In this document: positions 48,229-64,000 of the stretch, piece by piece
Numbering within the stretch: the first letter of the stretch is position 1
Layout: the number at the start of each line of letters is the position of its first letter
From: Pseudooceanicola spongiae
GTDB taxonomy: Bacteria > Pseudomonadota > Alphaproteobacteria > Rhodobacterales > Rhodobacteraceae
NCBI RefSeq assembly: GCF_014899185.1
Contig: NZ_CP045201.1
Coordinates: 2,402,501 to 2,466,500, forward strand
Length of the DNA: 64,000 bases
Reading direction: 5' to 3'
Made by a program: the position numbers and the translations under genes
Notes under the pieces: model-generated
The model's database searches: none
What the model was told of the DNA's origin: nothing
Seen by the model: the letters and a program-made list of their open reading frames with translations, nothing else

Positions 48229-48276
48229 CAGAGTTCTCCCGTTATGGGGTGGCCGCGAAAGCCGGAAATTCGTGGC

Positions 48277-48306
48277 AAAAGGCCCGCCGCGATCTTGGCG
48301 GCGGGC
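48277..48306 (-). terminator. Rho-independent terminator after the Liv-type binding-protein gene
   Basis: GCCCGCCGC (48282-48290) and GCGGCGGGC (48298-48306) form a perfect 9-base stem with a 7-base loop. On the minus strand it is followed by CTTTTG. It begins 7 bases after the stop of the Liv-type binding-protein gene, so the TAXI-TRAP genes may have a separate promoter or depend on read-through. Confidence 0.65.
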
Positions 48307-48312
48307 GATGCT

Positions 48313-49488
48313 TCATTCACATTTGTCGGCGGGGGCTTCGGCGAACTTGGTCCATTTGCCGCCCGTGACCTCGATCACATAGCCGGGCAGTTCGGCGTCA
48401 TGACCGACGAAACAGATGTCGTCGCCCACGATGCCGTTGAAGGAAATCCCCTCCATCGCGGCGGCCATTTCCGCGCGCTCTTCGTCAACCTTGTCCTCGT
48501 CACCGGTGACTCCGGTCTTCTCCATCAGCTGCTTCAGCAGGTAGACGCCGTCATAGGCCTGTGCGTCGGTGTGGTGCGCGCCCAGCTTGTGAATACCCTT
48601 GGCCTCAAGTTCGCTCAGGAATTCGGTGTTGAAGGTCGTGGCAGCCTCGGTGCGACCCGGCCAGAAGCCCGCCACCACCAGCGTGCCATCGCCCTCGGGG
48701 CCGAACAGCTCGACGATATTGGGGTCGGCGAAGATCTGACTGCCGATGACGCGGCCCTCATAGCCCTGACGGCGCAACTCCTTGATGACCTTGGACGCAC
48801 TCTGCGGCAGGCCAGCCACGGCCACGATATCAGGGTTGGTCTTCATGATCGTCGCCACCTGCGCGGACATGTCAAAGCTCTTGAACTGCACCGGGATCGG
48901 CTCGCCCACTTCAATCCCCGCCGCTTTCATCAGCGTCGGATAGAGCTCGGTACCCGCCGCATTGGCGACAACCTCGTCCGAGACATAGACGATCTCGGCC
49001 GTCTTGTGCGGGATGTCCGAGGCGGTCAGCGCCGCCAGCAAACGCCCGAACTGCTTGCTCTCGTCCTCGGTCAGACGCCAGCCATATTTGCTCTCATCCG
49101 TCAGACCGGGGGCCGAGGCAGCGGTCGGGATCATCAGCACCTTGAAGCGGTCGGCATCATTCAGCGCCACGCGCGCCTCACCGGATGAGAACGGCCCCAG
49201 GATCGCCAGCACGTCATCATCCTGGATCAGCTTACGCGCACCGACCGACGCCTGACGCGGATCGGACCCGGAGTCATAGCGGATCAGCTCGATCGGCTTG
49301 CCGTTGACGCCACCGGCGTCGTTGATTTCCCTCACCGCGATGTCAAAGGCGGTCTCGGCGCTTTCCCCGACGCTTTTCAGAAAGCCCGAGCTGGCGACGA
49401 TATTGCCGATCTTGATCGTGTCACCGGCAAAGGCCGGCAGTGCCGCCAGGATGGCCACCGCAGAAAGCAGAGTGGTACGCAGTTTCAT
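48313..49488 (-). CDS. Liv-type ABC transporter solute-binding protein
   Basis: This 391-residue binding protein has a signal peptide (MKLRTTLLSAVAILAALPAFA, cleavage near 21) and a type I periplasmic fold of the leucine/isoleucine-binding group (IKIGNIVASSGFLKSVGESAETAFDIAVREINDAGGVNGKPIELI). The broad HAAT family also moves urea, amides, aromatic acids and short-chain amides. With a flavin monooxygenase operon divergent from livH, an aromatic or nitrogenous solute is as likely as an amino acid. Cys117-like disulphide residues appear only near the C-terminus (DDICFVGHD, DKCE). Confidence 0.92.
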   Translation of the reverse strand: MKLRTTLLSAVAILAALPAFAGDTIKIGNIVASSGFLKSVGESAETAFDIAVREINDAGGVNGKPIELIRYDSGSDPRQASVGARKLIQDDDVLAILGPFSSGEARVALNDADRFKVLMIPTAASAPGLTDESKYGWRLTEDESKQFGRLLAALTASDIPHKTAEIVYVSDEVVANAAGTELYPTLMKAAGIEVGEPIPVQFKSFDMSAQVATIMKTNPDIVAVAGLPQSASKVIKELRRQGYEGRVIGSQIFADPNIVELFGPEGDGTLVVAGFWPGRTEAATTFNTEFLSELEAKGIHKLGAHHTDAQAYDGVYLLKQLMEKTGVTGDEDKVDEERAEMAAAMEGISFNGIVGDDICFVGHDAELPGYVIEVTGGKWTKFAEAPADKCE

Positions 49489-49542
49489 GTGTCGTCTCCG
49501 TGTTGGATCGTTTTGTTTTTGATTGATTGAGCCGGGGGCGGA

Positions 49543-50250
49543 TCAGGCCGCCCCCAGATAGGCTTCGGCAAGGCTGGGGTTTGCCGCCAGTTCTGCAGCA
49601 GGCCCCGACAACATCTCGCGCCCCAGTTCCAGCACGATCCCGCGTGCCGCAACTTCCAGCGCCATATGAGTATTCTGCTCGACCAGCAGGATCGAAATGC
49701 CGTCGCTGTTCAGCTCCCGGATCAGATCGAACAGCTTTTCCACGAACAGCGGCGACAGGCCCAGCGAGGGTTCGTCCAGCATGATCAGCCGGGGTTTAGA
49801 GATCAGCGCGCGGCCCAAAGCCAGCATCTGCTGCTCGCCCCCCGACAGCACAGTCGCCTTCATGTGGCGACGCTCGCCCAGGTTCGGGAACCGCTCGTAA
49901 ATCGCGGCAAGGTCGCCATGCACGCCGTCGTCGCGCCGCATGTACCCGCCCATCAGCAGGTTTTCCTCAACCGTCATCGACACGAAGATCTGACGGCCTT
50001 CGGGCACCAGCGCCATGCCCTTGGCGACCCGCGCGGCGGGCGACAGCGCCGTCATGTCTTCGCCGTCGAAAATGATCTGCCCGCCCTGCGGCTTTCGTGC
50101 GCCCTGAAGCGCGCGCAAAAGCGATGTCTTGCCCGCCCCGTTGGCGCCCAGAACGGTGACGACCTCGCCCCGCTCAACCCCGAAGGACACCCCCTGAACC
50201 GCCTTGGTGCGCCCGTAGGTGACCTCAAGATCCTTGACTTCAAGCAACAT
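49543..50250 (-). CDS. livF: Liv-type ABC transporter ATPase (LivF)
   Basis: This 235-residue ATPase has Walker A GANGAGKT at 35-42, FVSMTVEENLLMGGYMRRDD, signature LSGGEQQMLALGRAL and Walker B LIMLDEPSLGLSP, all typical of LivF. The ATG at 50250 is chosen because MLLEVKDLEVTYG is the family N-terminus; it overlaps the livG stop by 11 bases. It forms the ATPase pair with LivG. The binding-protein gene follows after 54 bases. Confidence 0.93.
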   Translation of the reverse strand: MLLEVKDLEVTYGRTKAVQGVSFGVERGEVVTVLGANGAGKTSLLRALQGARKPQGGQIIFDGEDMTALSPAARVAKGMALVPEGRQIFVSMTVEENLLMGGYMRRDDGVHGDLAAIYERFPNLGERRHMKATVLSGGEQQMLALGRALISKPRLIMLDEPSLGLSPLFVEKLFDLIRELNSDGISILLVEQNTHMALEVAARGIVLELGREMLSGPAAELAANPSLAEAYLGAA

Positions 50251-51031
50251 CGCTCGCCTCCGATTTGTCTGAATGGCGCGGGCCAAGGTAGGCCTCCAGC
50301 ACCAGCGGATCGCGCTGCACGTCCGCCGTCGGCCCGTCATAGATCTTGCGGCCAAAGTTCAGCACAACGGCCCGCGTGCAGAGCGAGCGGACCAGCCCCA
50401 TGTCATGCTCCACCACCAGCAGCGTCACGCCACTGGCCGAAATCCGGTCGAGGAAGGCCATCAGCTCCTCTGTCTCGGCGCCGTTCAGCCCGGCTGCAGG
50501 TTCATCCAGCAGCAGCAAGTTGGGCCGGGCGGCCAGCGCACGCACCAGCTCGATCTTCTTGCGGATCCCGTAGGGAAGGGTCGAGACGTCCTGCCCCGGC
50601 ACCACCTCGATCCCCATGTCTTCCAGCAGCGCCTCGGCCTCGGCCCGCGCTTGCGAGCGGCCAAAGAACGACAGCGGCGTCAGCAGACCGCCGGGGCGAT
50701 CGGCGCGCGAATGCTGCCCCAGCATGACGTTCTCCACCACGCCGAGGTGCGGCATCAGGCGGATGTTCTGGAAACTGCGCGCCATGCCAAAGCCGATGCG
50801 CTTGCGGCTGGGCGCTGTATCAATCAGCTGCCCACCAAGGCGCACATGCCCCGTATCCTGCCGGTACACGCCCGACAGCAGGTTGAAGATGGTCGTCTTG
50901 CCCGCGCCGTTGGGTCCGATCAGCGCCAGCCGTCCGCCCTCTTCAAGCGAGAAGCTGACATCGTCGATCACCTTCAGACCCCCAAAGGAAATCGACAGAT
51001 TTTCGACGGAAAGAAGAGGTGCGCCACTCAT
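50240..51031 (-). CDS. livG: Liv-type ABC transporter ATPase (LivG)
   Basis: This 263-residue ATPase has Walker A GPNGAGKT at 39-46 and GMARSFQNIRLMPHLGVVENVMLGQH, the long insertion characteristic of LivG, where LivF is shorter. It has a degenerate signature, STLPYGIRKKIELVRALA, and Walker B LLLLDEPAAGLN. It is translationally coupled to livM (4-base overlap) and livF. Confidence 0.93.
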   Translation of the reverse strand: MSGAPLLSVENLSISFGGLKVIDDVSFSLEEGGRLALIGPNGAGKTTIFNLLSGVYRQDTGHVRLGGQLIDTAPSRKRIGFGMARSFQNIRLMPHLGVVENVMLGQHSRADRPGGLLTPLSFFGRSQARAEAEALLEDMGIEVVPGQDVSTLPYGIRKKIELVRALAARPNLLLLDEPAAGLNGAETEELMAFLDRISASGVTLLVVEHDMGLVRSLCTRAVVLNFGRKIYDGPTADVQRDPLVLEAYLGPRHSDKSEASDVA

Positions 51032-51957
51032 GCCTCGGCCTCCTTCACGGCTGCACTGCGCCGGAACGGATGGCTCAGCCGCTCAACCAGTCGCCGCGTC
51101 ACCAGCCCTTCGGAGCGGAAGACCATCATCAGCACCGTCACCACGCCCAGCAGCACAAACCGCCAGCTTTCATCGGGGGGATTGACCGTGCCCTCGACCC
51201 CAAGCGCCGACATCACGGCCATCTTCAGCTCTGGCAGCAGGCTGCGCAACGCCTCGGGCACCAGCGTGAAGAACGCCGCGCCGACCATCGGCCCCCAGGG
51301 CGTCTGCGCCCCGCCCAGCAGGACATACAGCAGCACGTAGATCGAGAGAGAGGCGTTGAAGGTCTGCACCTCGACATAGGTATAGGCGTGGGCATAAAGC
51401 CCACCCGACAACCCCGCCAATCCAGCGCCAAGCGCGAACATCGCCACCCGCACCAAGCGGACATCGACGCCCATCAGGTCCGACACGACATCGTCGTCAT
51501 GCACCGCACGGACGACAAGCCCCAGACGGGTCGACATGATGTAAAAGCAGATCAGCGCCGCAATCACCGCGCCCGCCACCGGCACCGGCCAGTCGATATA
51601 ATCGGGCACCGGCAGCCCCATCGCACCGCCAAGCGCATCCGAGTTGATGATGATCCCCACCACCACCTCGGCAAAGGCAAAGGTGCCGAGCACCAGATAC
51701 ACCCCCTTCAGCCGCAAAATGGGAAAGGCAAAGGCGAACCCGATCAGCGCCGTCACAAGGATCGACGCCGGGATCGTCACATACAGCGGCATCCCCATCT
51801 CGGCCGACAGCCAGGCCGCCGCATAGGCGCCAATCGCCTGAAACCCTGCCCCGCCGAGGTTCAGCTGCCCCGTCGCGACCGCCAGATAGATGCCATAGGC
51901 AAAGACCATGTTGATCGACAGGATCGTGATGATCCCAATCCAATAACCGCTCATCAC
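51028..51957 (-). CDS. livM: Liv-type ABC transporter permease (LivM)
   Basis: This 309-residue permease has about eight to ten membrane segments. VATGQLNLGGAGFQAIGAYAAAWL near 28-51 is the LivM first-half motif, VRAVHDDDVVSDLMGVDVRLVRVAMFALGAGLAGLSGGLYA (about 158-198) contains the coupling loop, and LLGGAQTPWGPMVGAAFF is toward the end. It overlaps both neighbours by 4 bases and forms the channel with LivH. Confidence 0.93.
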   Translation of the reverse strand: MMSGYWIGIITILSINMVFAYGIYLAVATGQLNLGGAGFQAIGAYAAAWLSAEMGMPLYVTIPASILVTALIGFAFAFPILRLKGVYLVLGTFAFAEVVVGIIINSDALGGAMGLPVPDYIDWPVPVAGAVIAALICFYIMSTRLGLVVRAVHDDDVVSDLMGVDVRLVRVAMFALGAGLAGLSGGLYAHAYTYVEVQTFNASLSIYVLLYVLLGGAQTPWGPMVGAAFFTLVPEALRSLLPELKMAVMSALGVEGTVNPPDESWRFVLLGVVTVLMMVFRSEGLVTRRLVERLSHPFRRSAAVKEAEA

Positions 51958-52871
51958 AGCTTCCCCTTGCCAATGGCGTTATGGCCGAACAGCCCCTGCG
52001 GCCGCATCAGCAGTGTCACCAGCAGCGCACCCCAGACCGCGACCTGCACCGCATCGGCGCCAAAAAAGTGGATCGTCAGCATCTCGACCAGCCCGACGAT
52101 GATGCCGCCCGCAACCGCCCCCCAGAGAGAGCCGAGGCCGCCGACAACCATCCCGGCAATCGCCTTGGAGCCGATATCCTCGCCCATCATCGGGCTGACC
52201 TCGCCGTAGTTGACCGCGAACAGCGCCCCCGCCAGACCACAGAGCAGCCCCGTCAGCATGAAGACGACCGGCACGATCTTGTTCGGTTCGACCCCGAGGA
52301 TCGTCGCCGCATCGGGATTTTCCGCAATCGCGCGCAAGCCCCGCCCGATGCGGGTGTGCTTCATCATCCAGACCAGCCCGAGGATCAGCACCATCACGAT
52401 GACAAAGCTGACCAGCTGCGGAATGCGCACGAAAATGCCGCCGATCTGCGTCGTCAGATCCGACGACGGCCCCGGAAAGCGCTGTGAATCCGACCCGTAG
52501 AAGATCCGGATCAGGTTTTCGAGGATCAGCAGAAAGCCCAGCGACGACACCAGCGGAATGGCGTGTTCCGTCGAATCACCGTGGCGGGTGCGCATGTAGC
52601 GAAAGGTGAACCGCTCTACCAACAGCGAACACAGGATCGACGCGACCGCTCCGCAGGCCAGCGCAGCCGGCCAGGCGAGCGGACCGCTCAGCCCGAACGG
52701 CAGGCCGAAGTAAGCCAGACCCCAGCTCACCATGCCCGCGACCATGAACAGGGTCGGGATCGTGAAGTTCAGGAAATTCAGGATGCTGATCGTCAGCGTG
52801 AAGGCCACCGCAACTGTCACATAGACGGACCCCAGCATCAGGCCATTCACGATCTGCTGGACTAGCAACAT
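51954..52871 (-). CDS. livH: Liv-type ABC transporter permease (LivH)
   Basis: This 305-residue permease starts MLLVQQIVNGLMLGSVYVTVAVAFTLTISILNFLNF, the usual LivH N-terminus. The coupling loop RGLRAIAENPDAATILGVEPNKIV is near 180-203, and GGLGSLWGAVAGGIIVGLVEM near the end. It is the first gene of the livHMGF-binding-protein operon and is divergent from the flavin monooxygenase operon across a 370-base control region. Confidence 0.93.
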   Translation of the reverse strand: MLLVQQIVNGLMLGSVYVTVAVAFTLTISILNFLNFTIPTLFMVAGMVSWGLAYFGLPFGLSGPLAWPAALACGAVASILCSLLVERFTFRYMRTRHGDSTEHAIPLVSSLGFLLILENLIRIFYGSDSQRFPGPSSDLTTQIGGIFVRIPQLVSFVIVMVLILGLVWMMKHTRIGRGLRAIAENPDAATILGVEPNKIVPVVFMLTGLLCGLAGALFAVNYGEVSPMMGEDIGSKAIAGMVVGGLGSLWGAVAGGIIVGLVEMLTIHFFGADAVQVAVWGALLVTLLMRPQGLFGHNAIGKGKL

Positions 52872-52925
52872 GGGATGTCCTCCACGTTACTGAAAGTTTC
52901 GGTATACATATCACGCTCTCGTTTT

Positions 52926-52944
52926 CATTTGGACTGGACAAATG
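52926..52944. promoter_or_regulatory. Candidate operator near livH
   Basis: CATTTG-GACTGGA-CAAATG is a perfect 6-base inverted repeat with a 7-base centre, 55 bases upstream of the livH start on the minus strand. Its core TTTGGACTGGACAAA resembles TTTGTACTGACAA at 53167 and the sites near 45.2 and 59.6 kb, suggesting one regulator for several operons. Confidence 0.55.
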
Positions 52945-53165
52945 TGAACAACAAAAAGGCAGATCGGTCCAGACATTCTGTCACATCTGCCCGTAAGATT
53001 TCGGACTCAGCGCGGTATGTTTGCCGTAAAAACAGGCAAAACGCGCCAAAATCAGCAATTTGCGCAGATTTTCCGTCGATTTACACCACAACCGACACGG
53101 TCGCGCCCTGTGCATTTCGCAGCACTCCGCCCGCAGCGGCCGCCATTCGTGCATTTTCAGAATTG

Positions 53166-53190
53166 ATTTGTACTGACAATATGTGCACAT
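53166..53190. promoter_or_regulatory. Candidate operator near the flavin monooxygenase operon
   Basis: TTGT-ACTG-ACAA (53168-53179) is an inverted repeat directly followed by the palindrome ATGTGCACAT (53181-53190). It lies about 55-75 bases before the start at 53242. The first part is closely similar to the CTTTG...CAAAG dyad upstream of the operon at 59664 when both are read in the same sense (TTTGTAC then ACAA or TCAAA). Confidence 0.5.
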
Positions 53191-53241
53191 TTGCTCGCAG
53201 AACGACGGCAAGAACATCATCTCGGAAGGAAGCGAATCGCG

Positions 53242-54459
53242 ATGACACACAGCAAAGACGCAAGGTCGCGACGGGTAATCGTTGTCGGTGCAGGCCCGGT
53301 CGGCCTCGTTGCCGCCTGTTCCCTGATCGAAGAGGGCATTCCCGTCACGATCATCGAAAAGACCCCGGACCTGCCGGAGGACCTGCGCGCCTCCACCTTC
53401 CACCCGCCGACCCTCGACATGCTCGACCGTTTCGGCGTCACCGAAGGGCTGATCGCGCGTGGACTCGTCTGCCCGCACTGGCAGTTCCGCGACCGCGAGG
53501 AAGGCGTCGTTGCCACCTATGACCTCGGGATGCTGAAGGACGACACCAACCACCCCTACCGGCTGCAATGCGAACAGTGGAAACTGACCGAGGCCCTGCG
53601 CGACCTGCTGGAAGCCAGCGACCTGGCCGAGCTGCTCTACAACCGCCGCGCCACCGCGATCACCCAGGACGACACCAGCGTCACCCTGACGGTCGAACAT
53701 GACAACGGCAGCATCGAGATGATGACCGCCGATTATGTCATCGCCGCCGATGGCGCCCATTCGGCGCTGCGCAAGGCGCTGGAGATCCCCTTCGAGGGCA
53801 TGACCATCCCCGAGATCTTCCTGTCGATGTCGACCACTTTCGACTTTGTCGAAGCCATGCCAGACCTCGCCCCCATCGCCTATCTGACCGACCCCAAGGA
53901 ATGGGCCGTGATGCTGCGCACCCCCAGCCTCTGGCGCGTGCTGCTGCCCACCGACCCCGAGATGACCGAGGCCCAGATCAAGGACCCCGCCCTGATGGAG
54001 GCCCGCCTGCAGGCCCTCTGCCCCAAGGACACCCCCTACGAGGTGGTCCACGCGACCGCCTACCGCGTGCACCAGCGCGTCGCGCAAACCTATGTAAAGG
54101 GGCGCGCTTTCCTGGCCGGGGACTCGGCGCACCTGAACAACCCGCTGGGTGGGATGGGCATGAACGGCGGCGTGCATGATGCGGTCAACCTGGTCGACAA
54201 GCTGGCGCGCGTCTGGCGCGGCGAGGCTTCGCTCGACCTGCTCGACCTCTATGACCAGCAGCGTCGCAAGGCCTGCATCGACACCGTGCAATCGCAGTCG
54301 ATCCGCAACCGTCGCATGATGGCCGAAACCGACCCCGAGGCCCGCGCCGCCTATCACGACGACATGCGCGCCGTGGTCGCCGACCCCGTGCGGCACCGTC
54401 AGTTCATGCTGCAATCGTCGATGATCCAGTCCCTGCGCGACTCCGAAGCGCTCGTCTAA
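53242..54459 (+). CDS. FAD-dependent group A monooxygenase (PHBH fold)
   Basis: This 405-residue flavoprotein has the three motifs of single-component aromatic hydroxylases: GAGPVG (16-21) in the Rossmann strand, the DG motif at Asp170-Gly171 (AADGAHSALRK), and GDSAH (293-297) followed by PLGGMGMNGG. Such enzymes use NAD(P)H and oxygen to hydroxylate an activated ring; a few (the MHPC and 5-pyridoxate oxygenases) also open a pyridine ring. The ATG at 53242 follows GGAAGGAAGCGA; an upstream TTG at 53191 was rejected. It heads an operon with an AMDase-fold protein, a PuuE-like hydrolase and other degradation genes. Confidence 0.92.
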   Translation: MTHSKDARSRRVIVVGAGPVGLVAACSLIEEGIPVTIIEKTPDLPEDLRASTFHPPTLDMLDRFGVTEGLIARGLVCPHWQFRDREEGVVATYDLGMLKDDTNHPYRLQCEQWKLTEALRDLLEASDLAELLYNRRATAITQDDTSVTLTVEHDNGSIEMMTADYVIAADGAHSALRKALEIPFEGMTIPEIFLSMSTTFDFVEAMPDLAPIAYLTDPKEWAVMLRTPSLWRVLLPTDPEMTEAQIKDPALMEARLQALCPKDTPYEVVHATAYRVHQRVAQTYVKGRAFLAGDSAHLNNPLGGMGMNGGVHDAVNLVDKLARVWRGEASLDLLDLYDQQRRKACIDTVQSQSIRNRRMMAETDPEARAAYHDDMRAVVADPVRHRQFMLQSSMIQSLRDSEALV

Positions 54460-54484
54460 TCCACCCGCCTTGAGGACCCACACA

Positions 54485-55231
54485 ATGACCGACAGTCTTG
54501 GCTACCGAATGAAGTTTGGCGTGATCGCGCCCTCCACCAACACCTCTGTCCAGCCCGAGTTCGACGACATGCGCCCGGTTGGCGTTACCAACCACTTCTC
54601 GCGCATCATCATCCCCGACGATCCGGTCCACTCGGACGAGGATTTCAACGAACTGGTCATGCGGATCCGGGGCGAGACGATGAACGCCATCGACGCCGTC
54701 AAGACCTGCTCGCCCGACGCCATGATCATGGGGATGTCGGCCGAAACCTTCTGGGATGGCAAGGACCGCGCCGACAGCCTCAAGGCCGAGGTCGAGGCCC
54801 GCGCCGGCATGAACGTCGCCATGGGCTCGGACGCCTGCCAGAACGCGCTGCAGTGCTTCGGTGATATCAAGCGGATCGCCGTCGTCACCCCCTACATGCC
54901 GATCGGCGATGAACAGGTGCGCAAGTTCTTTGAGGACTGCGGCTATGAGGTGGTTCAGGTGCTGGGGCTGAAATCCAAAAGCCCGATGCTGATCGCCCAT
55001 GAGACGGAACAAACCCTGCGCGACGCCATCATCGAGGTGAACGATCCTTCGGTCGAGGCCATCGTGCAGGCGGGCACCAACCTCGCCATGGCCCGCGTCG
55101 GCGGCATCGCGGAGTTCTGGCTCGACAAGCCGGTGATCGCGATCAACACCGCGACCTACTGGCACGCGCTGCGCATGAACGGCATTCAGGACAAGGTGCA
55201 GGGCTTCGGCTCGCTGCTCAGCCACTACTGA
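54485..55231 (+). CDS. Maleate-isomerase/AMDase-fold protein lacking both catalytic cysteines
   Basis: This 248-residue protein belongs to the Asp/Glu racemase-arylmalonate decarboxylase-maleate isomerase superfamily, with APSTNTSVQPEFD (15-27) at the start like PSSNT of the family. Two cysteines act in maleate isomerases, near residues 76-82 and 194-200. Here the corresponding spots read MGMSAET (Ser85) and QAGTNLA (Gly197), so both thiols are missing. It is thus either a different lyase, isomerase or hydratase, or non-catalytic. The ATG at 54485 follows TTGAGGA. It is second in the monooxygenase operon. A second, cysteine-containing homologue lies at 59664. Confidence 0.88.
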   Translation: MTDSLGYRMKFGVIAPSTNTSVQPEFDDMRPVGVTNHFSRIIIPDDPVHSDEDFNELVMRIRGETMNAIDAVKTCSPDAMIMGMSAETFWDGKDRADSLKAEVEARAGMNVAMGSDACQNALQCFGDIKRIAVVTPYMPIGDEQVRKFFEDCGYEVVQVLGLKSKSPMLIAHETEQTLRDAIIEVNDPSVEAIVQAGTNLAMARVGGIAEFWLDKPVIAINTATYWHALRMNGIQDKVQGFGSLLSHY

Positions 55232-55239
55232 CGCCTTCG

Positions 55240-55261
55240 GTCGGGCGGCCCGCTGCCCGAC
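55240..55261 (+). other. Intercistronic hairpin in the monooxygenase operon
   Basis: GTCGGGC (55240-55246) and GCCCGAC (55255-55261) pair around an 8-base loop, followed by a long pyrimidine tract ending CCCCTTTTC. It lies 9 bases after the AMDase-fold gene stop. It may attenuate transcription into the downstream deacetylase-fold gene or protect the upstream message. Confidence 0.45.
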
Positions 55262-55292
55262 CCCCTTCCCCTTTTCAGCTAAAGAGACCGCC

Positions 55293-56204
55293 ATGCATTA
55301 CGACTTCGTGCCCCTCCCCGACCGCAAGCCCCTGATCTGGCCGAATGGCAAGAAGCTGGCGGTGATCCTGACCACCAACCTCGAATACTGGGACCAGGAA
55401 CGCGACGACCCCGCGCCCTATTACCCCGGCGGCCCCGGCATCGTCGGCGGCACACTGGGCGGCGATGTCTATGACAACCCGAACTGGACATGGCGCGAAT
55501 ACGGCCAGCGCGTCGGCGTCTGGCGCATGTTCGATGTCTTCGCAGCTGAGGGCGTGCCGACCTCCTGCACCATGAACGCCAAGATGGGGTTGGAGCGCCG
55601 CGCCGTCGTCGATGCCGCCGTCGCCCGCGGGTACGAGGTGATCCCCCACAACTACGTCCAGTCCGACCTGCTGACCGACTTCGCCAAGGACAAGGAAAAG
55701 GAACGCGCCGTCATCCGCGAGACGCTGAAGGTCTACCGCGATGTCGTCGGCAAACCCGCCAAAGGCTGGCTGTCGTCCTCGCTGCGCTCTACCCTCAACA
55801 CCGCCGATATCCTCGCGGAAGAGGGGCTGACCTTCTTCACCGACCTGCTGAACGACGACCAGCCCTACATGATCCAGACCGAAAGCGGCCGCCCGCTGGT
55901 CTCGATTTCCTATACCTCCGAGGTCAACGACTTCACCGTCTTCATGCGTCAGGGCATGGATGTCGACGGCGCCGCGCGGGTGTTTCAGGAACAGTTCGAC
56001 TGGCTGCGGCAAGAGGCGACAGAGACCGGCTCGGGTCGCTTCATGAACATCGGCCTGCACCCCCATGTGATCGGCCAGCCGTTCCGTATCCGTGCGATCC
56101 GTGATTTCATCCGCTATGCCAAGCAATTCGACGACATCTGGTTCGCCACCCGCGAGGAACTGGCCGACTGGTACGCCGAGAACCACGCCTCGCACATCGG
56201 ATAA
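55293..56204 (+). CDS. Polysaccharide-deacetylase-fold amidohydrolase (PuuE-like)
   Basis: This 303-residue cytoplasmic protein has the NodB/CE4 barrel, but its residues fit the PuuE allantoinase-like branch better than sugar deacetylases. The metal Asp-Asp pair is replaced by NLEYWD (29-34). His119 in VIPHNYVQSD lacks the second His four residues on, where Gln123 stands. A late GLHPHVIGQP supplies another His. PuuE is known as a metal-independent allantoinase, so hydrolysis of a cyclic amide, imide or ureide is plausible. The context with a flavin monooxygenase and maleamate-type enzymes agrees. There is no signal peptide. Confidence 0.88.
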   Translation: MHYDFVPLPDRKPLIWPNGKKLAVILTTNLEYWDQERDDPAPYYPGGPGIVGGTLGGDVYDNPNWTWREYGQRVGVWRMFDVFAAEGVPTSCTMNAKMGLERRAVVDAAVARGYEVIPHNYVQSDLLTDFAKDKEKERAVIRETLKVYRDVVGKPAKGWLSSSLRSTLNTADILAEEGLTFFTDLLNDDQPYMIQTESGRPLVSISYTSEVNDFTVFMRQGMDVDGAARVFQEQFDWLRQEATETGSGRFMNIGLHPHVIGQPFRIRAIRDFIRYAKQFDDIWFATREELADWYAENHASHIG

Positions 56205-56224
56205 GACCGCGCGAAAGGGATCGC

Positions 56225-56980
56225 ATGACGGACAGAGACGCAGATATGGACCACGATGCAGACGCATTGGCCCGGATGAAACCGGCCGATCGTGCCTATC
56301 ACGTCATCCGCGCCGCGATCCTGACGGGCGAGCTGCGCCCCGGGGCCCACCTCGCCGAAAACCAGCTCGCCGAGATGTGCAACTCCTCGCGCACCCCCGT
56401 GCGCGAGGCCCTGCAGCGCCTGACCGCCGAAGGTCTGGCGCTGTCGGAACGGCGCAGCCGCTTCGTTGCAAACTTCTCGTATGAGGAAGTCTCGGTCGTG
56501 TTCGAACTGCGCGCCCGGATCGAGGCCTATCTCGCCCGCCTCGCCGCGCTGCACGTCACGCCCGACGAAATCCGCCAGATGGAGGCGCTGATCCTGCGCA
56601 TGGATGACGTCGCCAATCAGGACCCCGCCGCCTTTCACGACCTCAACACCCAGTTTCACGATGCGATCCTGCGGGCCACCCGCTCGGCGCAGCTGCGCTC
56701 GGTCACGCGGCAGGTCTTTGCCCTGCCCCTCGTCACGATCAAGCGCGCCTACTGCGATCAACCCATTGATCCCGCACGCTCAAACGCCCAGCACCGCGAT
56801 ATCCTCGCCGCCTTCCGCAACCGCGACGAAGCCTGGGCCGAATCCGCGATGATGAGCCATATCCTGTCCGCCAAGCCGACCCGCCCGGCAGGCACCTCCC
56901 CCGAAGAGGCGCGCGTGCGCGCCCTCGCCAATGGCCTCGCACCCAATCCGCACGGCGGATTTTTCGGAGACCCGTCATGA
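56225..56980 (+). CDS. GntR-family (FCD) regulator
   Basis: This 251-residue FadR-group regulator has a winged helix at about 20-90 (QLAEMCNSSRTPVREALQRLTAEGLALSE) and an FCD domain at about 95-225 with the HD...TQFHDAIL metal-site pattern. It lies 20 bases after the deacetylase-fold gene and overlaps the SDR by 4 bases, so it is made with the enzymes. It may control its own operon through the sites in 52872-53241. An unrelated UTRA-type GntR 2.5 kb away is the other candidate. Confidence 0.92.
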   Translation: MTDRDADMDHDADALARMKPADRAYHVIRAAILTGELRPGAHLAENQLAEMCNSSRTPVREALQRLTAEGLALSERRSRFVANFSYEEVSVVFELRARIEAYLARLAALHVTPDEIRQMEALILRMDDVANQDPAAFHDLNTQFHDAILRATRSAQLRSVTRQVFALPLVTIKRAYCDQPIDPARSNAQHRDILAAFRNRDEAWAESAMMSHILSAKPTRPAGTSPEEARVRALANGLAPNPHGGFFGDPS

Positions 56981-57801
56981 CCAGAGCCCTCACCGGCAAG
57001 ACCATCCTCATCACCGGCGCCTCGCGCGGGTTGGGCCGCGAAATGGCGCTGGAACTGGCGCAGGCCGGGGCGCAGCTGGTCCTGATCGGGCGCAGCGACA
57101 GCCCCGCCCTGCGCGCGGTTCAGGCCGAGGCGCAGGCCCTCGGCGCCGAGGCCATCGCGCTGGCCTGCGACGTCGCCGACAAAGACCAGTGCCAGGCCAC
57201 GATCAAAGCCGCGCTGGACCGTTTTGGCCGCCTCGATGCCCTGATCAACAATGCCGGGATCGGGATGCGCGCCATTTCCGAGACGTTCAACACCACCCCC
57301 ACCAAATTCTGGGAGGCCGACCCCGCCGCATGGGCCGCGATCGTCAGTGCCAACGTCAACGGCCCGTTCTACATGGCCCGCTTTGCCGCCCCGCACATGG
57401 TCGCGCAGGGCGCGGGCAAGATCATCAACATCTCGACCTCGGATCAGACCATGGTGCGGCGCGGCTACGCGCCCTACGGCCCCTCGAAAGCCGCGCTTGA
57501 GGCCGCCTCCCGCGTCTGGGCGCAGGATCTCGACGGCACCGGCGTCACCGTCAACGTCTACCTGCCCGGCGGCGCCGCCGACACCGATCTGCTGCCGCCC
57601 TCGCCCGACAAGAAGGGGGCCGACGGCAACCTGCTGGAGGCCGCGATCATGCGCCGCGCCATCGTCTGGCTCTGCTCTGATGCCTCCGACGGTGTCACCG
57701 GCGCCCGCTTCATCGCCCGCCTCTGGAACCCCGACCTGCCGGACGCCGAGGCCGCCGCCGCCGCCCGCAGCCCCTCCGTCGACAAACCGGGCATCATGTG
57801 A
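56977..57801 (+). CDS. Short-chain dehydrogenase/reductase
   Basis: This 274-residue classical SDR has TGASRGLGREMA (13-24), the Asp of CDVAD, NNAGIGMR, the catalytic Ser in INISTSD and YGPSKAALE, with the active Tyr-x-x-x-Lys. It is co-translated with the GntR before it, and its TGA shares a base with the next ATG. It should oxidise or reduce a hydroxyl or keto intermediate. The C-terminal tail after residue 250 is longer than in minimal SDRs. Confidence 0.91.
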   Translation: MTRALTGKTILITGASRGLGREMALELAQAGAQLVLIGRSDSPALRAVQAEAQALGAEAIALACDVADKDQCQATIKAALDRFGRLDALINNAGIGMRAISETFNTTPTKFWEADPAAWAAIVSANVNGPFYMARFAAPHMVAQGAGKIINISTSDQTMVRRGYAPYGPSKAALEAASRVWAQDLDGTGVTVNVYLPGGAADTDLLPPSPDKKGADGNLLEAAIMRRAIVWLCSDASDGVTGARFIARLWNPDLPDAEAAAAARSPSVDKPGIM

Positions 57802-58697
57802 TGGTCGCCCTCGGCCCCCATGCCACGCTGGAGCGCGTGATTGACCTCGACCCCTTCCGCCTGCCGCTGGACTTCCTCTTTCCCGACGCCCGCCTCGACG
57901 CGCTGGAGGGCGCGCGCGACTGGCTCGCCCCGCATCACATCGACTTTGACCGGGCCGAGGTGCTGCTCGGCGTGCAAAGCCACCTGCTGCGGATCAATGG
58001 CCGCATTATCCTGATCGACAGCTGCGTCGGCGAACACAAATCCCGCCCCAGCCGGGCCGACTGGCACATGCGCGCAGGCACAGGCTATCTTGCCCGCCTC
58101 GCCGCGCATGGCGTGACGCCCGCCGATGTCGATGTCGTCTTCTGCACCCACCTGCACGCCGATCACATCGGCTGGAACACCCGGCTGGAGGATGGCCGCT
58201 GGGTGCCGACCTTCCCCAACGCCCGCTACCTGATCGGCAAGGCCGAGCTGGCGCACTGGCTGACACACGCCGCCGCCAATCACGGCGCCTTCAACGACAG
58301 CGTCGCGCCCCTGCTGGACGCCGGTTGCGTCGATACAGTCGAGGATGGCGCGGATCTCGGCGGGCACATGCACCTTGAGGCCCGCCTCAGCGTCACCGAC
58401 CTGCCCGGCCACTCGCCCGGCCAGACCGGCCTGATCCTGCAGAGCCCCGGCACCCGCGCGATCTTCTGCGGCGATGCAATCCACAGCCCGGCGCAGCTGG
58501 TGCGCCCCGACTGGTCGTCGCAGTTCTGCCACGATCCCCTGCAGGCCGCCCGCACCCGCCAGCACCTGCTGGCCGAGGCGCATGACACCGACAGCCTCCT
58601 GATCCCCGCGCATCTGCGCGACGCCATCGCCTTTCGCGCCCGCCCGAAACAGTCAGGCGGCAGGGAGATCTGGGAGCCGCAATGGCTTCAGGACTGA
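57801..58697 (+). CDS. Metallo-beta-lactamase-fold hydrolase (lactonase-like)
   Basis: This 298-residue hydrolase has the two-metal motif THLHADHIGWN (His117, His119, Asp121, His122), then LPGHSPGQ, CGDAIHS and a late PAH, the full ligand set. The layout resembles N-acyl-homoserine lactonases and 4-pyridoxolactonase. Lactone hydrolysis in the degradation pathway is a reasonable guess, but esterase or thioesterase activity is also possible. The ATG at 57801 overlaps the SDR stop; a GTG one codon earlier is possible. The 3' end overlaps the convergent GntR gene by 10 bases. Confidence 0.9.
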   Translation: MVALGPHATLERVIDLDPFRLPLDFLFPDARLDALEGARDWLAPHHIDFDRAEVLLGVQSHLLRINGRIILIDSCVGEHKSRPSRADWHMRAGTGYLARLAAHGVTPADVDVVFCTHLHADHIGWNTRLEDGRWVPTFPNARYLIGKAELAHWLTHAAANHGAFNDSVAPLLDAGCVDTVEDGADLGGHMHLEARLSVTDLPGHSPGQTGLILQSPGTRAIFCGDAIHSPAQLVRPDWSSQFCHDPLQAARTRQHLLAEAHDTDSLLIPAHLRDAIAFRARPKQSGGREIWEPQWLQD

Positions 58698-59458
58698 CCT
58701 CGGTTGCGCTTGATCCGCATCTTGTAGCTCAGCTGCTCTGCCGGGTGCCAGTTGCACGAGGTGATCAGAACGCCCTCGGACGTGCGATACCTGCGCAACA
58801 ATTGCAGCGCGATCGCCCCCGGTGTCAGCCCAAGCTGACGCTGCGCGGCCTCCGGCATCGGCGCGGCGCTGATCTCCTGCTCGCACTCATCGATCGGCAC
58901 GACCGAGTTGCTCTCCAACAGGTTGAAAAACGGCCCCTTATAGTCCTGAAACTGCGGCACCAGATGGGCAAAGGCCTGCGGAACATAGCTTTGGATATAG
59001 GCCATCGGGCGGCCCCCCGGCCGGGTCCAGCGCACACCGTCCACCCGGGTCCAGACCTCACCGACCTTGCCGCCAACGACCCCGGCCAGCTCCTTGTCCA
59101 GAGCAATCACCTCACTGCCCAGCACGACATAATAGGTCTCCACCGCGACCTGAAACAGCTCCTGCAGGCTATCGAACGTCTGGCTGTAATGCACCTGCGG
59201 CTGAGTCGAGATGACACGCGTGCCAAGCCCCTGACGACGCTCGACAAATCCACTGTCCGTCAGGTTGCGCAAGGCCTCGCGGACGGTGAATCGGGAGGTG
59301 TCGAATTCCGCCGAAAGCTCCACCTCGGTCGGCATCAGCGACCCGATCGGATAGGTCCCGTCCCGCAAGCGCGCCTCCAGAATCCGCTGGATTCGCGCAT
59401 AGCGCGGCCCCACGCCGTCATCCTTCTGTGTTGGCTTATCGGACAAATCTTCGGACAT
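58688..59458 (-). CDS. GntR-family (HutC/UTRA) regulator
   Basis: This 256-residue regulator has an N-terminal winged helix (about 15-85, SLMPTEVELSAEFDTSRFTVREALRNLTDSGFVERRQGLGTRV) and a C-terminal UTRA ligand domain (about 100-250). The ATG at 59458 is preceded by GACGAGGCG; an in-frame upstream start at 59518 was not used. It faces away from the maleate-isomerase operon at 59664, and the dyad at 59612 between them is its most probable operator. Similar dyads in two other control regions of this block suggest it may be the common regulator, with a pathway intermediate as effector. Confidence 0.91.
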   Translation of the reverse strand: MSEDLSDKPTQKDDGVGPRYARIQRILEARLRDGTYPIGSLMPTEVELSAEFDTSRFTVREALRNLTDSGFVERRQGLGTRVISTQPQVHYSQTFDSLQELFQVAVETYYVVLGSEVIALDKELAGVVGGKVGEVWTRVDGVRWTRPGGRPMAYIQSYVPQAFAHLVPQFQDYKGPFFNLLESNSVVPIDECEQEISAAPMPEAAQRQLGLTPGAIALQLLRRYRTSEGVLITSCNWHPAEQLSYKMRIKRNRGQS

Positions 59459-59611
59459 CAGCGCCTCGTCAATGCAAAGTGTTACACGACCCGTACAACC
59501 TACAGGCGTCTTGTTCAAATGGGATCATATAGGGCAGACTGCAAACATTTCCCGGCCTATCCCGCAACAGGCAGCTTAAAAGATATGGACATTTAAGTCA
59601 TCGCATGAAAT

Positions 59612-59627
59612 CTTTGATCGTACAAAG
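59612..59627. promoter_or_regulatory. Candidate operator between the UTRA-type GntR gene and the maleate-isomerase operon
   Basis: CTTTG-ATCGTA-CAAAG is a perfect 5-base inverted repeat with a 6-base centre, 36 bases before the start at 59664. Its reverse reads CTTTGTACGATCAAAG, similar to TTTGTACTGACAA at 53167. A further GTTACAC...GTACAAC stretch (59480-59499) lies nearer the regulator start. The rest of 59459-59663 holds no gene. Confidence 0.5.
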
Positions 59628-59663
59628 GGTGTTCTGCATCCCAATTTCACCGGAAATAACATC

Positions 59664-60443
59664 ATGTCTGCGCCTCTGGCCACGTCCCCTCGCCCCACAC
59701 GCCGCGCCTCTTCCTATAGCACCCGTGCCCGCCTTGGCCTGATCACGCCGCCCACCAATACGGTGAACGAAGCGGAATGGGCGCGCATGATGCCCGCGGG
59801 TGTCACCTATCACAGTCACAGGATGCGCCTGCACGCCGATACCACGAGCGAGGCCGGGCTGAAAACACTCCACGACGATCTCGACGCCGCCATCGCCATG
59901 CTGAGCGCCGCCGATGTCGATGTCGTCGCCTATGCCTGCACCGCAGGCTCCATGGTGACGCCCGCCGCTTCGATCCCCGAGGCCCTCACTGCGCGCAACC
60001 ACCTGCCCGTCGTCACCACCGCCGCCGCCATCATCGACGCGCTCACGGCCCTCGGCGTGACCCGGATCAGCGTCGCGACGCCCTACCACGACGCCCTGAA
60101 TGATCACGAGGTCCACTTCCTCGCCGATCACGGGGTTGAGGCGCTGTCGATCTCCGGCCTCGGCCTTGGTGCCAACGGCCCCTCCGAATACCCCCTGATC
60201 GCGCAGACCTCCTTGGCCGATGTCGCCGCCCATGCCCGCGCCAGTGTGGTGCCCGGCGCGCAGGCGCTGCTGATCTCCTGCACCGATTTCCCCACCCTGC
60301 CGATCATCCCGGCGCTGGAGGCGGAGCTGGGCATCCCCGTCCTCTCCTCCAACACCGCGACGCTGTTTGCCGCCCTCCGCGCGGCGGGCCTCGCCCACGA
60401 ACCCATTCCCGGCGCCGGCCGCCTGCTGTCCGGCACGCTGTAA
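59664..60443 (+). CDS. Maleate cis-trans isomerase / AMDase-family enzyme with both cysteines
   Basis: This 259-residue member of the Asp/Glu racemase superfamily has LITPPTNTVNEAEW (26-39). The two catalytic cysteines are Cys92 in YACTAGSM and Cys206 in ISCTDFPTLP, placed as in maleate isomerases. EutA proteins of ectoine use and arylmalonate decarboxylases are related, so the exact reaction is open: isomerising a (substituted) maleate to the fumarate form, or decarboxylating a malonate. It leads an operon with a lyase, an amidase and an SDR, which fits removal of a maleamate-like intermediate. Confidence 0.9.
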   Translation: MSAPLATSPRPTRRASSYSTRARLGLITPPTNTVNEAEWARMMPAGVTYHSHRMRLHADTTSEAGLKTLHDDLDAAIAMLSAADVDVVAYACTAGSMVTPAASIPEALTARNHLPVVTTAAAIIDALTALGVTRISVATPYHDALNDHEVHFLADHGVEALSISGLGLGANGPSEYPLIAQTSLADVAAHARASVVPGAQALLISCTDFPTLPIIPALEAELGIPVLSSNTATLFAALRAAGLAHEPIPGAGRLLSGTL

Positions 60444-60458
60444 TCAGGAGAGTACCCC

Positions 60459-61322
60459 ATGGCCAATCCCATCCTCCGTCAGAAACTGACTGCGGGCGAC
60501 TTCATCCTCGCCCCCGGTGTCTTTGACCTGATCTCGACCCTGATCGCGGACCGCGCCGGGTTTCCCGCGCTTTATGTCACCGGCTACGGCACCGTCGCCT
60601 CGCACCTCGGGCTGCCGGACGCGGGCCTTGCCACCTATACCGAGATGCTGGGCCGCATTGCCCAGATGGTGAAGCGCGCCGACACCCCGATCATTGCCGA
60701 TGCCGACACCGGCTATGGCGGCTTGCTGAACGTGCGCCACACCGTGCAGGGGTATGAAGACGCCGGCGTCACCGCCATCCAGATCGAGGATCAGGAGTTC
60801 CCCAAGAAATGCGGCCACACCCCCGGCCGCCGCGTCATCGCGATGCAGGACATGGTCCGCAAGGTCGAGGTTGCCGTCGACAGCCGCCGGTCCGATGATT
60901 TTCTCATCATCGCCCGCACCGACGCCCGCACCACGCTTGGGCTGGACGAGGCGATCCGTCGTGGCAAGGCCTATGCCGCCGCCGGGGCCGACATCGTCTT
61001 CATCGAAAGCCCCGAGAGCCCCGACGAGATGCGCCGCATCGCCGAGGAGATCGACCGCCCCCTCATGGCCAACATGGTCGAAGGGGGCCGCACCCCGATC
61101 CTGACCGCCGACGCGCTGAAGGATCTCGGCTATGCCATCGCGATCCACCCCGCCACCGGCTTCCTCGCCATGGGCGCCGCGCTGACCGCCGCCTATGCCG
61201 ACCTGCGCGACAATGGCGAGACGACCGAGGCGATCCCGATGCATTCCTTCGCCGATTTCAACAGCCTTGTCGGCTTCGAGGATGTCTGGGCGTTCGAGCG
61301 CCGTTTCCCCGAAACAGACTGA
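60459..61322 (+). CDS. Isocitrate lyase/PEP mutase-family carbon-carbon lyase
   Basis: This 287-residue TIM-barrel enzyme has the magnesium-site residues in ADADTGYGG (80-88), IEDQ (109-112) and the flexible-loop motif KKCGH (116-120). The Cys of KKCGH is the base in isocitrate, 2-methylisocitrate and 2,3-dimethylmalate lyases and is absent in PEP mutase and phosphonopyruvate hydrolase, so a lyase or oxaloacetate decarboxylase-like role is favoured. Following a maleate-isomerase homologue it could split a substituted malate into pyruvate or glyoxylate plus an acid. The gap before it is 15 bases, with AGGAGAG as ribosome site. Confidence 0.9.
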   Translation: MANPILRQKLTAGDFILAPGVFDLISTLIADRAGFPALYVTGYGTVASHLGLPDAGLATYTEMLGRIAQMVKRADTPIIADADTGYGGLLNVRHTVQGYEDAGVTAIQIEDQEFPKKCGHTPGRRVIAMQDMVRKVEVAVDSRRSDDFLIIARTDARTTLGLDEAIRRGKAYAAAGADIVFIESPESPDEMRRIAEEIDRPLMANMVEGGRTPILTADALKDLGYAIAIHPATGFLAMGAALTAAYADLRDNGETTEAIPMHSFADFNSLVGFEDVWAFERRFPETD

Positions 61323-61361
61323 CCGGATACCGCCCCGATACCGACTGGATACCGACGTGAT
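61322..61361. repeat. 11-bp iteron array, locus C
   Basis: ACCG cores start at 61322, 61329, 61340 and 61351. The last three are 11 bases apart, in units like ACCGACTGGAT. This copy fills the whole 37-base gap between the lyase stop and the amidase start, leaving no room for a normal ribosome site other than GGA at 61347-61349. It lacks the TTTTCGC flank of loci A and B. Confidence 0.65.
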
Positions 61362-62007
61362 GAATGACGACCTCAGTGACAACTACGCCCGTGCCTATGG
61401 TGGCACCGCAGGCTTCGGCGCGCGACCCGCTCTGGTGCTGGTGGACTTCGCCGAAGGCTATTTCGACCCCGATTGCCCGCTCTATGGCGACGAGGGGTGC
61501 CGCACCGCCCTTGCCTCGGCCCTGCGCATCCGCGAGGCGGCCCATGCCGCAGGCCTCCCAGTGATCCTAACCGAGGTCAGCTACCCTGACGACAGCGGTG
61601 TCACGGGGGGGCGCTTCTGGCAAAAAGCCAAGCCTTTGCAAGCCTTTGTGAAGGGCCGCAGCACCGCAGCCTTTGCCGCCGGACTGGTGCCGCGCGACGA
61701 TGAAGTCATCGTCACCAAGCACTACCCTTCGGCATTTTTCGGCACATCCCTCGCGCCGATGCTGACCGCCATGGGCGTCGACAACGTCATCCTGACGGGC
61801 CTGACGACCTCCGGCTGCATCCGCGCCAGCTGCGTCGACGCGATGAGCCATGGCTTCATCACCACCGTCGTCTCGGACGCCTGCGGCGATCGCCACCCCG
61901 GCCCTCACGAGGCTAACCTGTTCGATATGAACGCAAAATACGCCGACGTGGTGTCCGAGGAAACCATCCTCGCGCATATCTCGACGCTTCCGAAACGCGG
62001 TAACTGA
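61360..62007 (+). CDS. Isochorismatase-like cysteine amidohydrolase
   Basis: This 215-residue hydrolase has the Asp-Lys-Cys triad of the family: Asp29 in LVLVDFAEGYF, Lys120 in VTKHYPSAFFGT, and Cys153 in TTSGCIRASCVDAMSHGF. The FFGTSL and cis-peptide region match N-carbamoylsarcosine amidase and maleamate amidohydrolase (NicF) more than true isochorismatases. Deamidation of a maleamate- or carbamoyl-type intermediate is the best guess. The start is ATG 61360 (a GTG lies one codon before); the frame is open upstream inside the lyase gene, but the family sequence begins NYARAYGG just after this ATG. Confidence 0.9.
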   Translation: MNDDLSDNYARAYGGTAGFGARPALVLVDFAEGYFDPDCPLYGDEGCRTALASALRIREAAHAAGLPVILTEVSYPDDSGVTGGRFWQKAKPLQAFVKGRSTAAFAAGLVPRDDEVIVTKHYPSAFFGTSLAPMLTAMGVDNVILTGLTTSGCIRASCVDAMSHGFITTVVSDACGDRHPGPHEANLFDMNAKYADVVSEETILAHISTLPKRGN

Positions 62008-62025
62008 GCCCGGAAAGGCCAAGAC

Positions 62026-62769
62026 ATGGCAACTGAAGACACCCCCAAGACCATCGCGGTCCTCGGCGGCGCCGGTGGCATCGGCCGCACTCTGGTCGCC
62101 AGCTTGCAGGACCGGGGCCATACGGTGACCGTCCTCGACCTACCCGTGTCGCTAAAGACCCATGACATCAACGGCATAGCCATCGATGCCGCTGACGAAG
62201 CCGCCGTCACCCGCGCCATGGCCGAGCTGTCCGAGCGGCACCCGGATGGCATCGACGGCTTCGTCAACCTCGCCGGCTGGAACTCCGACATCCAGCCGCT
62301 GAGCGAAACGCCCGCCTCCTATTTCGATGATGTCATCCAGGGCAACCTGCGCTCCACCTTCCTCGCCACCAAGGCCGTGGCGCCGCTGATCACTGACGGA
62401 GGCGCAATTGTTCTGTGTTCCTCGGGGCTTGGCCAGTTCATCCGCCCCGGCTTCGGCCCCTATGCGGCCTCAAAGGCCGGTGTCATTGCCCTGACCAAGA
62501 CCTTCGCGCTGGAGCTTGCGCCGCGTCTGCGCGTCAACGCCGTCGGTCCCGCCGTGGTCGATACCGCCTTCCTGCGCGGCGGCACCGGGCGCTCGGATGA
62601 AAGTGCCGACAACGTGCTGGATATCGAACGTCACAAGGCGATGACGCCCCTTGGCCGCGTCGCCCAACCCGAAGATGTCGCTGGCCCGATCCGCTTTCTG
62701 CTTGGCCCCGACGCCAGTTTCATGACAGGTCAGGTGCTCTGGATCAACGGCGGCGCCTACATGCCCTGA
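62026..62769 (+). CDS. Short-chain dehydrogenase/reductase
   Basis: This 247-residue SDR has GGAGGIGRTL (14-23) as the cofactor loop, VLDLP with Asp after the second strand (NAD-type), NLAG, a Ser in VLCSSGLG, the catalytic pair in YAASKAG, and the usual GQVLWINGGAYMP end. GGAAAGG precedes the ATG after an 18-base gap, so it is fourth in the operon. A hydroxy-acid or keto-acid intermediate is the likely substrate. Confidence 0.9.
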   Translation: MATEDTPKTIAVLGGAGGIGRTLVASLQDRGHTVTVLDLPVSLKTHDINGIAIDAADEAAVTRAMAELSERHPDGIDGFVNLAGWNSDIQPLSETPASYFDDVIQGNLRSTFLATKAVAPLITDGGAIVLCSSGLGQFIRPGFGPYAASKAGVIALTKTFALELAPRLRVNAVGPAVVDTAFLRGGTGRSDESADNVLDIERHKAMTPLGRVAQPEDVAGPIRFLLGPDASFMTGQVLWINGGAYMP

Positions 62770-62820
62770 GGGCGCATAGCCGCTTGCCCTGCCCCTTGAC
62801 CCGTTCCGCCGCGAGATCCT

Positions 62821-63960: not shown

Positions 63961-63968
63961 AAGCTGGC

Positions 63969-63991: not shown

Positions 63992-64000
63992 ATCCGATTT

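Follow-up and report, generated by a model that had tools for sequence, protein, structure and literature searches.

The window analyzed here is a stretch of 64,000 nucleotides from the genome of Pseudooceanicola spongiae. At positions 54485-55231 of its plus strand lies an intact ORF with an ATG start, whose 248-residue product we call the Cys-less protein for reasons given below. The features surrounding this gene, in window coordinates, are the following.

48313-52871, minus strand: divergent branched-chain-type ABC uptake genes (a binding protein, two ATPases and two permeases; named by eye)
53236-54459, plus strand: FAD monooxygenase (FAD_binding_3), 25 bp upstream of the Cys-less gene; the gene caller gives an alternative start at 53242
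54485-55231, plus strand: Cys-less protein of the AMDase/maleate-isomerase fold, with M84 and G197 at the cysteine columns
55293-56204, plus strand: PuuE-allantoinase-like hydrolase of the polysaccharide-deacetylase fold, 61 bp downstream of the Cys-less gene
56225-56980, plus strand: GntR/FCD regulator, in the same-strand run
56977-57801, plus strand: SDR oxidoreductase, overlapping the GntR/FCD regulator gene
57798-58697, plus strand: metallo-beta-lactamase-fold hydrolase, AidB-lactonase-like but under the AidB model's cut-off
59664-60443, plus strand: Cys-bearing paralogue (Cys92, Cys206), likely a cis-trans isomerase or racemase
60459-61322, plus strand: lyase of the isocitrate-lyase/PEP-mutase family, from profile and solved-relative matches
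61366-62007, plus strand: isochorismatase-type amidase; nearest solved relative N-carbamoylsarcosine amidohydrolase (26st), then 3ot4/3uao

The Cys-less gene had been described as forming an operon of its own; instead, it is the second in a same-strand run of six genes (53236-58697: monooxygenase, Cys-less protein, PuuE-like hydrolase, GntR regulator, SDR and metallo-hydrolase), which we infer from the spacing to be co-transcribed. The nearest solved relatives of the monooxygenase are PnpA (6ain, 3e-61) and HspB (7da9, 2.6e-50). The PuuE-like product has no Pfam match at 0.01. A second block, comprising the Cys-bearing paralogue, the lyase and the amidase, also has an SDR gene, and the solved relatives of its lyase are petal death protein, carboxyphosphonate mutase, methylisocitrate lyase and, lower, dimethylmalate lyase. 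An antisense ORF of 296 codons (54404-55294, minus strand) spans the whole Cys-less gene. Antisense and out-of-frame ghost ORFs of this kind recur over relatives of the gene and mimic conserved genes. Indeed, three apparent clusters of conserved neighbors (1, 2 and 4) were discarded because they consisted mostly of such ORFs overlying the gene, together with some unrelated ones.

A single Pfam family, AMDase (PF17645), matches the Cys-less protein, with 53.7 bits against a cut-off of 25.9, and neither Pfam nor an AlphaFold2 model revealed a second domain in its 248 residues. The model, built from an alignment of 42 sequences, has a mean pLDDT of 96. Its top solved match is the maleate isomerase 2xed (Z 32.3, 1.8 A over 235 residues), followed by 4fq5 (Z 31.3), the AMDase 3ixl (Z 29.6) and 4ix1 (Z 27.0). 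Solved maleate isomerases, AMDases, 4ix1 and 2dgd together give Z 25-32, and no family from outside the superfamily was found among the best 50 matches of each fold search. The profile score and the predicted two-domain fold thus place the protein in the AMDase/maleate-isomerase fold family of the Asp/Glu racemase superfamily. Narrower models describe it poorly: the EutA model of ectoine utilization (TIGR02990), the best NCBIfam match by E-value, reaches only 59.2 bits against a cut-off of 318, and the NCBIfam AMDase model 51 bits against 225. The original prediction, that the fold outside the catalytic cysteines is preserved and that the PSTNT segment near the start is kept (P16-T20), is upheld. 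Four PF17645 matches occur in the organism's genome, counting the window protein and the paralogue at 59664.

In a MAFFT alignment with AMDase and two maleate isomerases, M84 falls on AMDase position 74 and on the first cysteine of both maleate isomerases; S85 is aligned with Thr75 of AMDase, Y137 with Tyr126, G197 with Cys188 and T198 with Gly189. A profile-profile alignment against ten Cys-bearing paralogues agrees, pairing M84 with Cys92, S85 with Thr93 and G197 with Cys206. Both catalytic cysteines are therefore absent from the window protein, as had been proposed, and the paralogue at 59664 does retain its Cys92 and Cys206. The second site had been correctly located at Gly197. The first had been assigned to Ser85, which is off by one: the cysteine column holds Met84. 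The same prediction had asked for an alignment with solved relatives lest other cysteines, for example Cys118 or Cys124, occupy the catalytic positions; in the sequence alignment C75, C118, C124 and C152 appear at no catalytic column. The window protein thus has, in M84 and G197, neither the two cysteines of maleate isomerase (EC 5.2.1.1) nor the pair used for 1,1-proton transfer by Asp/Glu or hydantoin racemases.

In a single scan of genome contigs, we obtained 66 related loci. Going by record titles, Alphaproteobacteria account for 36; the others include Gammaproteobacteria, Comamonadaceae-type bacteria and metagenome-assembled genomes (MAGs) of Deltaproteobacteria, Binatia, Chloroflexi and Dehalococcoidia. 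The clade occurs in Proteobacteria as well as in MAGs of Chloroflexota and Binatia. A phylum-wide sample had a match to the family profile at E 1e-15 in 51 of 398 genomes, but only four matches, window included, exceeded 360 bits, the next one scoring 133 bits. The column alignment was built from 160 matches, reduced to 156 by removal of duplicates and supplemented with four reference sequences. Among its 160 rows, the residues at the two sites are M/G in 80, C/C in 50, I/G in 10, G/C in six, V/G in four, Y/G in four and L/G in two, with C/G, N/G, R/C and M/gap once each; the C/C count takes in the AMDase reference, a G74C mutant of an enzyme that is naturally Gly/Cys. Cysteine is found at neither site in any of the 102 family rows. 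Residue 84 is M in 81 of these, I in 10, Y in four, V in four, L in two and N in one.

The phylogeny that had been called for groups the Cys-less rows in one clade: in a tree of 83 rows, all 52 lie on one side of a single branch (SH-aLRT 98.2). The tree was made by a quick method from rows hand-picked for spread out of the 160, has several long branches, and is unrooted. We regard this as a real, conserved, cysteine-free clade. L003, another protein of the organism's own genome, has Cys at site 1 and Gly at site 2; it lies outside the clade on the longest branch, and its mixed pair possibly represents a half-way state.

The original prediction spoke of a preserved fold with a cleared active site. 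The fold part stands, but "cleared" does not, as columns of the pocket rank with the conserved ones. Over 99 family rows, the 15 AMDase pocket positions (13 from the criteria in PMC4996985, plus positions 77 and 190, which we added) have a mean top-residue frequency of 0.878, against 0.675 for all columns; only two of 10,000 random column sets of equal size reached that value. A further alignment comprises 85 family and 29 other sequences after duplicate removal. The conserved signature reads N19...S85...Y137...Q195-x-G-T-N199...N221...W226. Of the 99 family rows, 98 have a letter at G197, T198 and N199, and in these the three residues never vary; T18, N19, T20, S85, Y137, Q195, N221, W226 and R230 are each at least 97% conserved in the family rows. 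Pocket position 46 is poorly conserved (top frequency 0.30), and three divergent rows (L019, L020 and L025) have part of the signature altered. The pocket loops contain no invariant acid or base in place of the cysteines (E87 is found in 73 of 99 rows and, in the alignment with 85 family rows, D91 in 69), and no invariant set of metal ligands was seen in them. The dN/dS values of the Cys-less gene are 0.068 against L026, 0.178 against L039 and 0.166 against L042, which is within the range of the neighboring genes (for L039, a comparison without a value for SDR1).

The conservation of the pocket columns makes a decayed role unlikely, and the invariance of G197, T198 and N199, the lack of cysteine in all 102 rows and dN/dS values of 0.07-0.18 likewise speak against decay. 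Conservation and purifying selection therefore argue that a dead protein is unlikely, and the sequences point to an active site that is rebuilt, not cleared.

A comparison with characterized relatives refines this picture. The maleate cis-trans isomerases of Nocardia farcinica (2XEC/2XED) and Pseudomonas putida S16 (Iso, 4FQ5/4FQ7) are the nearest in fold (Z 31-32, rmsd 1.8 A over 233-235 residues) and have N19 and Y137 in common with the window protein, but they carry cysteines at both columns where it has M84 and G197, and their sequences are only 19-24% identical to it. Iso takes part in the breakdown of nicotine by P. putida S16, together with an amidase and an HspB-type flavin monooxygenase, and its gene company is thus similar to that of the Cys-less gene. 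4IX1 (Rhodococcus opacus OPAG_01669) is alike in fold (Z 27.0) and also has Gly at the second cysteine column, but it reads SGAA where the window protein has QxGTN. OpaE is a two-cysteine member according to PMC12661438.

AMDase of Bordetella (3IXL and 3DG9, Z 29.6 and 29.3) shares the fold and part of the pocket. The window protein has P16, S85 (Thr75) and Y137 (Tyr126), and its FYRG/FWDG segment after site 1 is aligned between the two. It differs at three positions, with G197 for Cys188, M84 for Gly74 and T198 for Gly189. Cys188, the proton donor of AMDase (EC 4.1.1.76), and Gly74 together constitute criterion 10 in Table 4 of Maimanakos et al. 2016 (PMC4996985), and the window protein has neither. 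The dioxyanion-hole residues T75, S76, Y126 and G189 correspond to S85, A86, Y137 and T198, two being conservative or identical and two changed. The hydrophobic pocket of AMDase (L40, V43, Y48, V156 and M159), for which identical or similar residues are required, is represented by I43, D46, F54, P167 and I170, of which D46 and P167 are dissimilar. Because Cys188, Gly74 and Gly189 are replaced and the AMDase score falls so far below its cut-off, the name "arylmalonate decarboxylase" given to Cys-less proteins in public annotation is unsafe; it does not fit their pocket.

The gene surroundings bear on what the protein might do instead. We counted as a neighbor any blastp match at E 1e-10 covering half the length; several loci are cut by contig ends, and the counts are thus lower bounds. 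On this basis, the FAD monooxygenase is found in 34 of the 66 loci, in 32 of them as the immediate upstream neighbor of the Cys-less gene; the isochorismatase-type amidase in 32, directly upstream in 15; the PuuE-like gene in 26, directly downstream in 17; and the Cys-bearing paralogue in 24. Homologs of the ABC uptake genes occur in 15-18 of the 66, depending on the gene. Within the stretch examined, 14 of the 66 loci have neither monooxygenase nor amidase, and more than one reaction may therefore occur in the clade. For comparison, we used the next-best 26 loci, those of Cys-bearing members (20 Cys/Cys and six Gly/Cys; L107-L132): the monooxygenase occurs in none and the amidase in four, although these control loci have flanks of about 1.5 kb, shorter than those of the test loci, are next-best matches and not random ones, and for two of them the Cys-less protein is the better query.

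The linkage was also approached from the monooxygenase. A reverse search over 394 genomes of the family gave 31 matches, 30 of which were taken as loci. The Cys-less gene lies within 1.5 kb in 14 of these (window included); in another five (L137, L138, L141, L142 and L144), its coordinates put it on the same contig at a distance of up to 4 kb. Of the remaining eleven, ten have a monooxygenase of 39-45% identity and one, L140, of 61%. Mean identity is 88% for the Cys-less protein in 24 close loci and 71% for the monooxygenase in 22, but we do not take this as evidence: it is an ascertainment effect, as the loci were found with the Cys-less protein. Apart from the window, 13 loci found with the monooxygenase carry the Cys-less protein within the flank; its identity is 87, 85 and 71% in three of these and 37-52% in the other ten.

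Two further ideas arising from the gene surroundings were rejected. Long open frames in L040, L041 and L071 suggested a fusion of the monooxygenase with the Cys-less protein, but L040 and L041 have a separate monooxygenase ORF, and in L071 the upstream gene, by eye a CoA-transferase-like ORF, stops where the Cys-less gene begins. Nor does residue 84 closely track gene context: M84 is found both in L099, with a glutamate-cyclase-like partner, and in L085, with a RutA-like one, whereas V84 occurs in L017 and L018 (genomes G024 and G035) with a monooxygenase beside the gene (L154 and L156). Residue 84 varies with subclade and only loosely with context.

Plasmids extend the range of partners. A search of 72,556 records gave 185 with a match at E 1e-5, a count that takes in the weaker matches irrespective of their cysteines. 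Twelve regions were opened, two of them without annotation; in the ten annotated ones, the Cys-less proteins are named "arylmalonate decarboxylase". In Thioclava and Novosphingobium capsulatum, the monooxygenase directly precedes the Cys-less gene and an isochorismatase is nearby. RutA directly follows the gene in Roseomonas (614.7 against a curated cut-off of 498.3), a D-glutamate-cyclase-like protein overlaps it in Salipiger, and a CoA transferase, an HMG-CoA-lyase-like protein and an isochorismatase accompany it in Tistrella. None of these partners is directly beside it on a second Tistrella and a second Roseomonas plasmid. Common to many of the partners is a nitrogen in an amide, imide or hydroxypyridine setting, with dicarboxylate-type lyases downstream.

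In Leisingera, Rhizobium and Bradyrhizobium, the Cys-less gene adjoins an NRPS of about 1,300 residues. The NRPS has AMP-binding, carrier and thioesterase domains. A tautomerase is annotated in the Leisingera and Rhizobium regions; Pfam supports the former but not the latter. By gene order, we take the Leisingera arrangement to be the indigoidine operon and the Cys-less genes of L100-L102 to be igiC. That operon is described in PMC5014874 as comprising igiR, igiB (hydroxyisobutyrate dehydrogenase), igiC ("arylmalonate decarboxylase"), igiD (peptide synthetase), igiF (tautomerase) and igiE, and igiBCDFE is placed on a Phaeobacter caeruleus plasmid in PMC3910702. PMC12826045 credits earlier research with implicating igiB and igiC in pigment production, to which polar effects on igiD may have contributed. 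One further indigoidine paper makes no mention of igiB, igiC or arylmalonate. The putative IgiC has no cysteine at either site, has the QxGTN motif and falls on the same branch; hence it appears to belong to the Cys-less clade. The Leisingera copies are 41.8-43.0% identical to the window protein. L100-L102 differ from it in having V or L at position 84 and in being NRPS-linked with no monooxygenase, and the annotated tautomerase is present in L100 and L101. No NRPS of indigoidine size is beside the window gene, the longest ORF listed in 48000-64000 having 622 codons. Among the matches listed in the open-licence literature, the igiC annotation was the only description found of this clade, and no pathway for this gene set was found.

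The catalysis known for this superfamily depends on one or two cysteines. That a clade both widespread and strictly conserved has neither suggests that the fold supports another chemistry. The original prediction offered a new reaction or a binding or regulatory role; the former is likely, to judge from the sequences, and the latter found no positive support. We consider it somewhat probable that the window protein is a working enzyme of the cysteine-free clade, carrying out a decarboxylation or tautomerization on a nitrogen-containing ring, amide or imide. This reading draws on the predicted fold, the absence of both cysteines by alignment, the single clade, the strictly conserved new pocket signature, purifying selection and the recurrent linkage to amidase-type genes and to a flavoenzyme of a ring-hydroxylating type.

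Its substrate would be a nitrogen-containing ring, a ring-derived amide or imide, or a hydroxypyridine intermediate, made by the flavin monooxygenase. The PuuE-like hydrolase, amidase, Cys-bearing isomerase and lyase would act after it in a pathway that might degrade an N-heterocycle or cyclic imide as far as a C4/C5 dicarboxylate. The intermediate of AMDase is stabilized by the oxyanion hole, and its only proton donor is Cys188 (PMC4996985). The window protein may retain such a hole, in which S85, Y137 and the G197/T198 backbone, with N19, N199 and Q195, would hold a carboxylate or imide oxyanion. The chemistry might then be decarboxylation or keto-enol/imide tautomerization, with proton exchange with solvent. 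With these residues at the two sites, the protein can carry out neither of the family's cysteine-dependent reactions, 1,1-proton transfer or cis-trans isomerization by thiol addition. Because the equivalents of Tyr126 and Thr75 are retained, a cysteine-free decarboxylation or tautomerization in which solvent donates the proton is the most economical proposal.

The main rival is a hydrolase, in which the pocket would activate water and open a cyclic imide, lactam or azaquinone supplied by the monooxygenase. The company of amide hydrolases and cyclic-amide enzymes (PuuE-like, N-carbamoylsarcosine-amidase-like, RutA and D-glutamate-cyclase-like) speaks for this. We nonetheless hold it unlikely, as the pocket loops have no invariant acid, base or metal ligand set, and amide hydrolases are already supplied by the neighbors. 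That same want of an evident acid or base substitute, with both catalytic cysteines gone, could also indicate a small-molecule-binding or partner protein, either regulatory or one that chaperones the monooxygenase product. Such a role seems quite unlikely to us, given pocket columns conserved above the rest, a gene that recurs beside different kinds of oxygenase, and a 248-residue chain in which no second domain was found.

A third alternative, very improbable in our view, is an ordinary maleate isomerase, racemase or AMDase that relies on some other residue instead. The window protein does have their fold and Pfam family, but its four tested cysteines align with non-catalytic columns, the AMDase-specific positions are not kept, and a Cys-bearing paralogue is already present in the same gene block.

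Returning to the decarboxylation or tautomerization that we prefer, one could go further and propose that the clade is a distinct enzyme family with one cysteine-independent reaction on azaquinone- or imide-type rings, serving both N-heterocycle breakdown and indigoidine synthesis, with site 1 as a variable specificity position. We put this wider proposal forward tentatively, and think it unlikely to hold as a whole. If the window protein does act on the monooxygenase product, knowledge of that conversion could give clade members from several phyla an annotation and could also account for IgiC.

Several loci carry more than one copy or unusual partners. L071 (4017-7334) has two Cys-less paralogues, in the order CoA-transferase-like ORF, I84 type, amidase, M84 type. 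Two Cys-less copies are also found in genomes G062, G142, G162 and G188, and G148 has a second copy of 34% identity. In L085 (6928-7995), from a gammaproteobacterial MAG, a RutA-like monooxygenase (394 bits against the cut-off of 498) lies 5 bp before the Cys-less gene, which is followed by a gene of the enoyl-CoA-hydratase family. Finally, the organism's own genome has another cluster, L167 (G000:C1, about 3486443-3494309), in which the L003 paralogue is joined by a monooxygenase paralogue that has a single in-frame stop and by a weak match to isochorismatase.
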